Source: Acidobacteriota bacterium
GTDB lineage: Bacteria; Acidobacteriota; Terriglobia; Terriglobales; SCQP01
Direction: 5' to 3'
DNA length: 64,000 nucleotides
Assembly: GCA_027459505.1 (NCBI GenBank)
Contig: DAIDIE010000040.1
Location: forward strand, 62,001-126,000
A model generated the notes under the pieces. It was given only the letters and a program-made list of their open reading frames with translations, made no database searches and was not told the DNA's origin. Shown piece after piece: positions 50,729 to 56,290 of this stretch; positions within the stretch are counted from its first letter, which is position 1; every line of letters starts with the position of its first letter. Position numbers and translations under genes: made by a program.

Positions 50729-53251
<2,523 letters not shown>

Positions 53252-53465: not shown

Positions 53466-53494
53466 TTGACTTTCCCCTTCCCCTCCGCTAATGT
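53466..53494 (+). promoter_or_regulatory. Sigma-70-type promoter of the cys leader
   Basis: TTGACT (53466-53471) and TAATGT (53489-53494) are separated by exactly 17 bases. The predicted start point, about 7 bases after the -10 hexamer, coincides with the A of the leader-peptide ATG at 53501, so the leader mRNA would be leaderless. Confidence 0.6.
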
Positions 53495-53500
53495 ATCCCC

Positions 53501-53584
53501 ATGGTCCGCACCTCGAGCCACATGTGTCGCTGTTGTTGTCACACCACGTGTATGTGGCCGGAGGTGGGGCGGAATCCGCGTTAG
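53501..53584 (+). CDS. Cysteine-rich leader peptide of the cysDN operon
   Basis: A 27-codon frame: MVRTSSHMCRCCCHTTCMWP then EVGRNPR and TAG. Five cysteines (codons 9, 11, 12, 13 and 17, all TGT) lie together, a density expected of an attenuator leader sensing charged tRNA-Cys. There is no ribosome binding site, but the promoter position suggests the transcript begins at or very near the AUG. It sits directly before a leader/antiterminator/terminator structure and then cysD. Too short for routine gene calling; proposed from context. Confidence 0.7.
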   Translation: MVRTSSHMCRCCCHTTCMWPEVGRNPR

Positions 53585-53654
53585 CCGATTCCTGAGATGC
53601 AAGTAGTACCCGAGATGCCCACCTCGCCGCTGGCAGGGTGGGCAGTTGTGTTTT
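53505..53654 (+). promoter_or_regulatory. Transcription attenuator: leader hairpin, antiterminator and terminator before cysD
   Basis: Three exclusive pairings are visible. Leader hairpin: CACCTC (53509-53514) with GAGGTG (53561-53566), continued by CCACAT (53518-53523) with ATGTGG (53552-53557). Antiterminator: GAGGTGGG (53561-53568) with CCCACCTC (53618-53625). Terminator: GCCCACC (53617-53623) with GGTGGGC (53637-53643), then TTGTGTTTT. A ribosome stalled at the Cys codons (53525-53539) would cover the 5' arm of the leader hairpin, freeing 53561-53568 to form the antiterminator. Low Cys-tRNA would thus turn on cysDN, as in trp-type attenuation. Confidence 0.7.
53617..53654 (+). terminator. 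Conditional (attenuator) terminator upstream of cysD
   Basis: A 7-bp stem GCCCACC/GGTGGGC with an inner GCC/GGC pair, followed by TTGTGTTTT. It lies 33 bases after the leader-peptide stop and 88 bases before the cysD start. Confidence 0.7.
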
Positions 53655-53741
53655 AGAACTTCCCTACCCTACTAGCGAGCCAGGCAATAGGCGCCCAACC
53701 GAGAGCAGCCGGTGCGGTGCCCTATAAAAAGGATGGTTCGC

Positions 53742-54728
53742 ATGAGCACAGTTCTTTCCAGCTACGCCGCCACGCAGCCGTTTCCTGGCGTCTTGCCCCG
53801 GGCCGCGGCCCCCTCCGCCACTCCACGCCGCCGCCTGACGCATCTCCAGGCCCTTGAAGCGGAAAGCATCCACATCTTCCGCGAGGTGGTCAGCGAGTTC
53901 CAGAACCCGGTGATGCTCTATTCCATCGGCAAGGACTCGTCGGTGATGCTGCGCCTGGCGCAGAAGGCGTTCTATCCCGGCAAGATTCCCTTCAAGTTGC
54001 TTCATGTGGATACCGGCTACAAGTTTCGCGAAATGATCGAGTTCCGCGATCGGTACGCCCAGGAGCTGGGGCTGGATTTGATTGTGCATCGCAATGAGGA
54101 GGCGCTGGCCGAAGGCGCCAATCCTTATAAACTCGGCACCTCCCGCTGCTGCGAGCTGCTGAAGACCAAGTCGTTGCTGGATGCGCTGCGCGAGGGCGGC
54201 TTCGACGCGGCCTTCGGCGGCGCGCGCCGCGATGAGGAGCGCTCACGCGCGAAGGAGCGCATCTACTCGGTGCGCGATCCGCGTGGTCAATGGGATCCCA
54301 AGCAGCAGCGGCCTGAACTGTGGAATCTGTTTAACAGCCGCCTCGCTCCCGGCGAGAGCATCCGTGTCTTCCCGCTCTCCAACTGGACGGAGATGGATAT
54401 CTGGCAGTACATCCACGAGGAAAACATCCCCATCGTTCCCCTCTACTTCGCCAAGCCTCGTCCCATGCTGGTGCGCGGCAACCAGTTGATCTCCACCGAA
54501 CAGGAGTTTGTGCCGCGCCTGCCCGGCGAAAAAGAACAGACCGTGATGTGCCGCATGCGTTCGCTGGGCTGCAGTCCCTGCACCGGCGCGATTCGCTCCA
54601 CCGCCACCACTCTGCCCGCCATCATCGAGGAGTTGGTTTCCTTCCGCCGCTCCGAACGCGAAAACCGCGTCATTGACCACGACCAGGACGGCTCGATGGA
54701 GCTGAAGAAGAGGCAAGGTTACTTTTGA
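53742..54728 (+). CDS. cysD: Sulfate adenylyltransferase subunit 2 (CysD)
   Basis: Catalytic subunit of ATP sulfurylase: sulfate plus ATP gives APS, the first step of assimilation. The 328-residue PP-loop ATPase has [49 protein letters not shown] and [15 protein letters not shown], all family hallmarks. ATG 53742 is preferred because AAGGA lies nine bases upstream; ATG 53733 overlaps that site. The stop overlaps the cysN start. Transcription is probably controlled by the upstream Cys attenuator. Confidence 0.93.
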
Positions 54729-56290
54729 TGCTTTCCAGTGTAATGTCCGCCGAGGAGTTCCTCAAGGCCGAACGTAATAAGGATTTGCTGCGCCTGGTCA
54801 CCGCCGGCAGCGTGGACGACGGCAAGTCCACCCTGATCGGGCGGCTCCTTTACGATTCCCAGAGCGTCTACGAAGACCAGCTCGTGGCCATGAAAAAGGC
54901 CAGCGAGCGGCACTTCGGCAACTCGATGGAGCTGGCGCTGCTCACCGACGGCCTGCGCGCCGAACGCGAGCAGGGCATCACCATTGACGTCGCATACCGC
55001 TACTTCAGCACCGCGCGACGCAAGTTCATCCTCGCCGACACGCCGGGCCACGAGCAGTACACGCGCAACATGGCCACCGGCGCCTCCACCGCCGACCTCG
55101 CCATCCTGCTGGTCGACGCGCGCCGCGGCGTTCAGCCGCAATCGCGCCGCCACGCCTATATCCTTGGCATGCTCGGCATTCGCGACCTGGTGGTGGTCAT
55201 CAACAAGATGGATCTGGTGGACTTCGACCAGTCCATCTATGAGCAGCTCACCAGCGAATTCAGCGCCATAGTCGAGCCTCTCGGCTTCGCCAAAGTGCAG
55301 TATGTCCCCATCAGCGCCGCCAAGGGCGACAACGTCGTCACCCGCAGCGACAAAACGCCCTGGTATGACGGCCCCAGCGTGCTGGAGTACCTGGAATCGG
55401 TGGAGGTCAAACGCGCCGAAGACGAGGCGGCCTTCCGTTTCCCGGTGCAGCGCGTCCTGCGGCCCACCCAGGAATTCCGCGGCTACAGCGGACAGATCAG
55501 CGCCGGCGCGGTGCGGGTTGGCGATCCCGTGATCGCGCTGCCCGGCTTTCGCCGCAGCACGGTGCAGTCCATCGTCACCTGGGATGGCGAACTGCAGGAG
55601 GCCTTTGCGCCCCAGTCCGTCAGCATCACCCTGGCCGACGAGATCGATATCAGCCGCGGCGACACCATTTGCGCCGAGCAGGACCTGCCCTCGGTTGCGA
55701 CCCGGATGCAGGCCAACCTGATCTGGTTCTCCGATCAGCCCTCCGAGACCGGACGTCCCTACCTCATCAAGCACACCAGTCACTTGACCACCGGAACCCT
55801 GAAGCCCGTCGAGCGCCTCGACATCCAGACGCTGCAGTGGCGGACGGCGGACGGTTTTGAACTTAACGATGTTGGCGTGGTCGAGTTGGAGACTGCCCGC
55901 CCGCTTTTCTTCGATCCCTACCGCCAGAGCCGCAATGCCGGCAGTTTCATCGTTATAGATCCGGCCGGCAACAATACCGTCGGCGCGGGGATGATTCTGC
56001 ACGCCATGGAGGAAGGTGACAGCGTCGCCGGCCTCACCGCCACCGCCCAGGTTTGGAACCTGAACGGACGCCAACACCGCGCCGAGCTGCTGGAGGCCAC
56101 CCTGCGAGGCCGCGGCTTGGCGGTGGTCAGTCTGCTGAGCTGGGAAGAAAAGGCCGCCCACCTGCTGCTCGCCGCCGGCTTCCAGGTCGTGGTTTTGCAC
56201 GCCCCCGGCGACATTGGCCGCCAGCTCAGCGGCGCCAGCGATGAAGAAGCCGTGCAGGGAGTGCTGCAGGAGCTGCAAGGGCTCGGTTAG
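54728..56290 (+). CDS. cysN: Sulfate adenylyltransferase subunit 1 (CysN)
   Basis: EF-Tu-like GTPase that drives CysD. The 520-residue protein has GSVDDGKSTLIGRLL (P-loop), REQGITIDVAYRYF, LADTPGHEQYTRNMATGAS, VINKMDLVDF and a C-terminal beta-barrel. It is longer than E. coli CysN (475) because of about 85 extra residues that include HLLLAAGFQVVVLHAPGD. No APS-kinase P-loop is present there, so this is either a degenerate CysC remnant or an unrelated tail. ATG 54728 overlaps the cysD stop (TGATG), indicating translational coupling. Confidence 0.92.
   Translation: MLSSVMSAEEFLKAERNKDLLRLVTAGSVDDGKSTLIGRLLYDSQSVYEDQLVAMKKASERHFGNSMELALLTDGLRAEREQGITIDVAYRYFSTARRKFILADTPGHEQYTRNMATGASTADLAILLVDARRGVQPQSRRHAYILGMLGIRDLVVVINKMDLVDFDQSIYEQLTSEFSAIVEPLGFAKVQYVPISAAKGDNVVTRSDKTPWYDGPSVLEYLESVEVKRAEDEAAFRFPVQRVLRPTQEFRGYSGQISAGAVRVGDPVIALPGFRRSTVQSIVTWDGELQEAFAPQSVSITLADEIDISRGDTICAEQDLPSVATRMQANLIWFSDQPSETGRPYLIKHTSHLTTGTLKPVERLDIQTLQWRTADGFELNDVGVVELETARPLFFDPYRQSRNAGSFIVIDPAGNNTVGAGMILHAMEEGDSVAGLTATAQVWNLNGRQHRAELLEATLRGRGLAVVSLLSWEEKAAHLLLAAGFQVVVLHAPGDIGRQLSGASDEEAVQGVLQELQGLG

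Follow-up and report, generated by a model that had tools for sequence, protein, structure and literature searches.

A putative cysteine-sensing transcription attenuator upstream of cysD-cysN in an Acidobacteriota bacterium and similar leaders at other sulfate assimilation genes

Our analysis of the window, the whole stretch of 64,000 nucleotides from an Acidobacteriota bacterium, indicates that its cysDN operon is very probably controlled by a ribosome-mediated transcription attenuator sensing charged tRNA-Cys, which would be one of several switches in the same genome that jointly cover sulfate assimilation. The sequence comparison behind this reading revealed a leader with Cys codons, the position of its promoter, a terminator, antiterminator pairing specific to each leader's own terminator arm, and the recurrence of such units at other genes of the pathway. 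The coupling of sulfate activation to tRNA-Cys charging put forward in a preliminary description of this DNA is supported, on computational grounds, by the conserved leaders, the terminators and the own-specific pairing.

Organisation of the cysD-cysN upstream region in the window

The leader region lies downstream of gyrB, which ends at 53251. The promoter, the 27-codon peptide with five TGT codons, the leader hairpin, the antiterminator and the terminator were all recovered by sequence reading and folding where the preliminary description had placed them (Table 1). The leader ATG at 53501 is preceded by six bases and then by TAATGT. The cysD gene starts with the ATG at 53742, and since cysN overlaps cysD by 4 nt and the gene after cysN lies on the opposite strand, the operon consists of cysDN. 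Segment 2 is located in the final codons of the leader and is the full complement of segment 3, giving eight contiguous pairs, and segment 3 makes up most of the 5' arm of the terminator. The bases of segment 2 have a second possible partner upstream, in the first leader codons; the resulting 1:2 hairpin encloses the Cys codons and, from the predicted fold, would permit terminator formation in the absence of leader translation. The product of cysN has a C-terminal extension of about 85 aa past its GTPase and C-terminal domains, which had no Pfam match in the search.

Table 1. Features of the cysD-cysN region of the window (positions in the window) and loci with variant leaders in relatives
Feature	Position or loci	Strand	Basis
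Promoter: -35 TTGACT (53466-53471), 17-nt spacer, -10-like TAATGT (53489-53494)	53466..53494	+	sequence; family-wide TTGAC-N17-TANNNT layout
Leader peptide ORF, 27 codons, MVRTSSHMCRCCCHTTCMWPEVGRNPR and stop; probably near-leaderless start	53501..53584	+	ORF reading, shuffles, promoter spacing
Sensor: five Cys codons, all TGT (53525, 53531, 53534, 53537, 53549)	53525..53551	+	sequence; codon counts
Leader (1:2) hairpin enclosing the Cys codons	53504..53570	+	minimum-energy fold
Segment 2, antiterminator 5' strand, GAGGTGGG	53561..53568	+	sequence; own-specific pairing across family
Segment 3, antiterminator 3' strand, CCCACCTC, overlapping terminator 5' arm	53618..53625	+	sequence, folding
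Intrinsic terminator: stem 53616-53624/53636-53644, inner stem 53626-53628/53632-53634, then U-rich GTTGTGTTTT	53616..53654	+	folding, shuffles
cysD, sulfate adenylyltransferase small subunit, regulated gene	53742..54728	+	TIGR02039, NF009214 above cut-off
cysN, sulfate adenylyltransferase large subunit, regulated gene	54725..56290	+	TIGR02034, NF003478 above cut-off
Leaders before cysD without convincing intrinsic terminator (relatives)	L091-L100, L103-L112, L039		
Cys leaders on the strand opposite cysD (relatives)	L014 2092-2172, L037 2147-2215, L084 1003-1098, L085 1067-1138, L089 248-283	-	

Some of these parts exceed chance in the window by themselves. The Cys density of the leader was higher than in all 100 dinucleotide shuffles, the terminator (-21.3 kcal/mol, with an interrupted U tract) was equalled in 0 of 20 shuffles, and the whole leader folded with z = -3.1. 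The window antiterminator taken by itself was matched by shuffles (p = 0.18-0.35, and 0.30 in a second test), as an 8-bp match is unremarkable in a sequence so rich in GC. The -10 hexamer TAATGT is weak, with three of six matches, and for this reason a generic sigma-70 promoter scan of the window returned no site. Both the antiterminator and the -10 element reach significance only across the family and not at the window locus; because the window antiterminator lies within chance, the case depends on relatives.

Leaders, promoters and terminators in relatives

Homologues of cysD were taken from GTDB genomes and from whole-genome sequences within the window's family, order and phylum. Conservation of Cys runs upstream of cysD, which the preliminary description had named as a check, was found in many relatives: a short Cys-run ORF ending no more than a few hundred bases before the gene was present in 53 of about 109 loci, with peptides such as MSLCSTPATCCACCCVTRRTVG, MVPTLCPCACCCCPRPCEGSRARGL and MRACCQCRNCCPACPVAVCCRVR, which differ between groups outside the Cys runs. 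In the unselected set, 31 of 109 loci exceeded all 100 shuffles in Cys density, and none of the 22 non-acidobacterial control loci (L061-L082) had a Cys-run leader, none of them exceeding two Cys per eight codons in the sense direction. Two pairs of loci (L028/L090 and L022/L114) each appear to be one contig recorded twice. A same-family genome (G011, locus L135) carries the leader MSLNPLMPVSCRCRACACCQSAEGCDLG and a terminator of -27.3 kcal/mol. The leader precedes whichever gene comes first: a TauE/SafE permease gene in L040, L045, L046 and L119, and a PALP-family cysteine-synthase-like gene ahead of cysD in L023. No recognisable leader was seen at most Bryobacterales-type cysD loci or, in the family of the window, at cysD copies of about 50% identity. 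Several genomes of this family (L136-L140) have only such a copy, and close cysD homologues occur in other families, which could point to exchange or loss of the gene.

A TTGAC-N17-TANNNT element was strongly enriched just before the leader, 22 of 70 loci matching it at 9 or more of 12 positions against 1.1 in shuffles, and the commonest distance from -10 to start codon across relatives was 7 nt. With this spacing, a transcript from the usual start point would begin at or beside the start codon, and translation of the leader is therefore probably leaderless or nearly so. The family-wide position of the promoter, just ahead of the leader start, also argues against a transcript start downstream of 53584. 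The Cys codons of the leaders are TGT 234 : TGC 77, and those of the downstream cysD genes TGT 16 : TGC 225. The rarer Cys codon might raise the sensitivity of stalling, and structural reasons for TGT are also conceivable.

A hairpin of -12 kcal/mol or stronger with a T run followed the leader in 34 of the 53 loci, compared with 5.1 expected from shuffles, and in the cysD family the terminator begins at a median of about 34 nt past the leader stop. Cultured relatives in which the arrangement is complete include Acidipila rosea (L018), Edaphobacter lichenicola (L037) and Granulicella sp. dw_53 (L025); the leader of Terriglobus roseus (L039) has no convincing terminator. Leader ends and terminator arms covary, for example TATGGGA/TCCCATA in L004 vs TGGGATA/TATCCCA in L036, and the corresponding pair in L101 is CGTGGGTGTG/CGCACCCACG. 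Column-wise covariation on clade alignments was unsuitable, because the core of the terminator hardly varies and the antiterminator shifts its register from one relative to the next; it was dropped and replaced by comparison of own and swapped pairing energies with permutation. The mean duplex energy was -24.6 kcal/mol for leader ends paired with their own arm, against -18.7 kcal/mol with the arms of other loci (n = 46, permutation p = 5e-5, z = -9.4); these p-values are optimistic in that the loci share ancestry, which is answered in part by restricting partner swaps to within clades (p = 0.0004, 0.005 and 0.001 in three clades). The same test on siroheme reductase leaders, a set whose only leader in common with the cysD set is that of the window's own genome (L126/L181), gave z = -7.5 (n = 25), and the small cysH set gave p = 0.13. 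The compensatory stem changes that the preliminary description had looked to thus appear as own-specific pairing of terminator and antiterminator, kept despite sequence change.

Outside the window, the same genome carries a second Cys leader, MRHTAVCCRCSGATRPGCV, with a terminator (-21.1) before cysH-cysC (L002/L211; L002 is on contig C34, 1342-1401, minus strand), and a further leader, MSHAKRNSAPCCCRCSLSLPGER, with a terminator before a siroheme reductase gene followed by a tetrapyrrole methylase gene, cobA (L126/L181; L126 is on C10, 911-982). The presence of the same leader units at cysH-cysC and at siroheme reductase-cobA in one genome points to a pathway-wide regulon and not a single site. 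A related peptide, ...GCCRCRLSLAR, precedes a second siroheme reductase gene (L125; C35, 861-956), where a terminator was not recognised. Among relatives, 25 of the 29 loci for siroheme reductase had leader and terminator, as did five of the six cysH loci at family level, either before cysH or before the gene ahead of it. In the window's genome, the cysS, TauE-family and cysK-like (PALP) genes showed no recognisable leader, and a SulP sulfate transporter was not found. NCBIfam scores the siroheme enzymes ambiguously as nitrite or sulfite reductase; the Cys leader and terminator at L126 suggest that the enzyme, at least at this locus, is a sulfite reductase.

Folding behaviour, proposed mechanism and alternative explanations

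All 47 leaders tested folded into the terminator when a ribosome was placed at the stop codon. When the ribosome was instead kept on the Cys run, with RNA polymerase not yet beyond the terminator loop, a mean of 0.78 of the terminator 5' arm was paired with the leader, vs 0.54 with shuffled leader ends (z = 7.0). In the window, a ribosome on the first Cys codon and a polymerase at 53635 allowed all eight antiterminator pairs to form. The switch was seen in this co-transcriptional intermediate only; it did not appear when the full leader carrying a stalled ribosome was folded at equilibrium. Once the transcript was complete, 42 of 47 loci still had the terminator as the stabler fold despite the stall, so the choice must be kinetic and made during transcription. 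Escherichia coli trpL gave the same pattern in the identical calculation, including the stabler terminator in the complete transcript.

Considering these results, we have drawn up a model in which translation of the leader, stalling, termination and the response to cysteine are the steps that we infer from sequence. RNA polymerase would initiate at or next to the leader ATG, and a ribosome would load at the nearly leaderless 5' end. Under a shortage of Cys-tRNA(Cys), this ribosome would stall at the TGT run and leave segment 2 free to pair with the emerging segment 3, so that the terminator would be blocked and cysDN transcribed. When Cys-tRNA is ample, the ribosome would reach the stop codon (53582-53584) and cover segment 2, the terminator would form and transcription would stop at about 53650.

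The output of such a leader need not be the same everywhere. About 19 relatives, concentrated in the family-level group f2, have a Cys leader before cysD without an intrinsic terminator, and at some of these loci (for example L091 and L098) an ACTCC-N4-GGAGT hairpin lies over the cysD ribosome-binding region; output may there be exerted at translation or via Rho. Some of these genomes without a cysD terminator do have one at the siroheme reductase leader (L206 of G054 and L210 of G044). Together with the absence of terminators from mycobacterial leaders (PMC1262725), these loci speak for an explanation in which the Cys run is the sensor and the output is exposure of the cysD start site or ribosome-dependent Rho termination, as proposed for mycobacteria. 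However, this explanation has no need of the strong terminator and own-specific antiterminator found in the window and 33 other loci, and we regard it as improbable for the window.

It is still less probable that the product of the Cys-rich ORF is a small peptide with a function of its own, such as metal or redox binding, and that the terminator only insulates cysDN from gyrB. Small Cys-rich proteins exist and gyrB is indeed the upstream neighbour, but the peptides of different groups are alike only in their Cys runs, their Cys codons favour the otherwise rare TGT, and the end of the ORF pairs with its own terminator arm; nor would one expect insulators at several sulfur operons to lie 3' of a unit made up of promoter and ORF. 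We give equally little credence to a metabolite-binding riboswitch (for SAM, cysteine or O-acetylserine) acting through the hairpins beside a fortuitous ORF, although the leader is long and structured, as its folding score shows. The window had no match to Rfam leader RNAs or riboswitches at the curated gathering score, six leader loci searched at E <= 0.5 yielded one sub-threshold match, and it is the Cys codons that are conserved between clades, with no conserved aptamer-like sequence.

Relation to known leaders and breadth of the predicted regulon

Trp-type attenuation is a classical mechanism, and the cysDN leader resembles it in its parts. A Cys-rich leader ORF, with Cys at 5 of 27 codons, lies directly upstream of the operon in the window; an intrinsic terminator, absent in the roughly 19 relatives mentioned above, stands between this ORF and the first gene; and an antiterminator sharing an arm of the terminator is found across the family, with p of about 0.2-0.3 for the window alone. 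Like E. coli trpL, the cysDN leader has codons for the end product in its peptide, an overlapping antiterminator and intrinsic terminator, and the same co-transcriptional outcome. It differs from trpL in that it would sense Cys and not Trp, in a start codon probably almost at the transcription start, in its unrelated phylum and sequence, and in that several operons of one pathway carry the unit.

The uORFC-8-2 motif upstream of cysS in Rhodobacterales, with tandem Cys codons and an intrinsic terminator, has been proposed to sense tRNA-Cys charging (PMC8632094). It shares with the cysDN leader the succession of a short ORF with Cys codons and an intrinsic terminator; however, it belongs to Alphaproteobacteria, precedes cysS, and has UGC as the dominant codon with Cys at positions 14-15 (PMC8632094), whereas the acidobacterial leaders precede sulfate assimilation genes and are dominated by UGU. 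Assignment of the window unit to uORFC-8-2 was ruled out, as it precedes cysD, its codons are TGT, and no Cys leader-terminator was recognised at cysS of the genome. In Actinobacteria, cys leader peptides with Cys runs have been reported in which terminators were not found (PMC1262725). Polycysteine leaderless sORFs of mycobacteria have been studied as attenuators (PMC4633059, PMC9031893, PMC13236596) and described as translation attenuation (PMC13236596); Canestrari et al. (2020) is cited for such sORFs as well. These leaders are similar to the acidobacterial ones in being leaderless or nearly so and in preceding several cysteine or sulfur operons, but most acidobacterial loci have strong intrinsic terminators with antiterminators, and no terminators were found in the former. 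The window unit was also considered as a mycobacterial-type sORF and rejected; it is near-leaderless by promoter spacing, yet has an intrinsic terminator.

In open-licence papers, we found no description of such leaders in Acidobacteriota, nor of leaders with terminators before cysDN, cysH or siroheme reductase. The suggestion in the preliminary description that the arrangement may be undescribed holds for Acidobacteriota within this literature, but a Cys attenuator with an intrinsic terminator has been published for Rhodobacterales cysS (PMC8632094). The acidobacterial leaders are a new family within a known mechanism, with unusually complete coverage of the pathway. The pathway-wide spread, the probable near-leaderless start, the terminator-less clades and the TGT preference go beyond what had been described at the outset.

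Acidobacteriota are among the most abundant soil bacteria, and we found no earlier description of how they control sulfur assimilation. In an earlier survey of attenuators, almost all of those predicted in this phylum were without an assigned function (PMC2965389). The leader is recognisable by eye and could serve as a ready marker for cysteine and sulfur genes, and the acidobacterial leaders are a natural case for comparing different outputs of a single sensor peptide.

We lean slightly towards a broader view, in which much of acidobacterial sulfate assimilation would be under parallel near-leaderless Cys-tRNA attenuators, covering ATP sulfurylase, APS/PAPS reductase, siroheme-dependent sulfite reductase and its cofactor genes and, in some lineages, a permease of the TauE type and an outer-membrane protein resembling TonB receptors. 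The main cysteine signal would then be tRNA charging and not a metabolite-binding regulator, and some clades would have given up the terminator and shifted the output to a different mechanism. Five loci carry an extra Cys-run leader on the strand opposite cysD, mostly with a terminator (Table 1). In the four of these with a readable gene, its start resembles CarboxypepD_reg/outer-membrane beta-barrel proteins of the TonB-receptor type (confirmed by Pfam for L014 only), which suggests that this protein, encoded divergently from cysD, has a role in sulfur acquisition as a sulfur-regulated uptake receptor.
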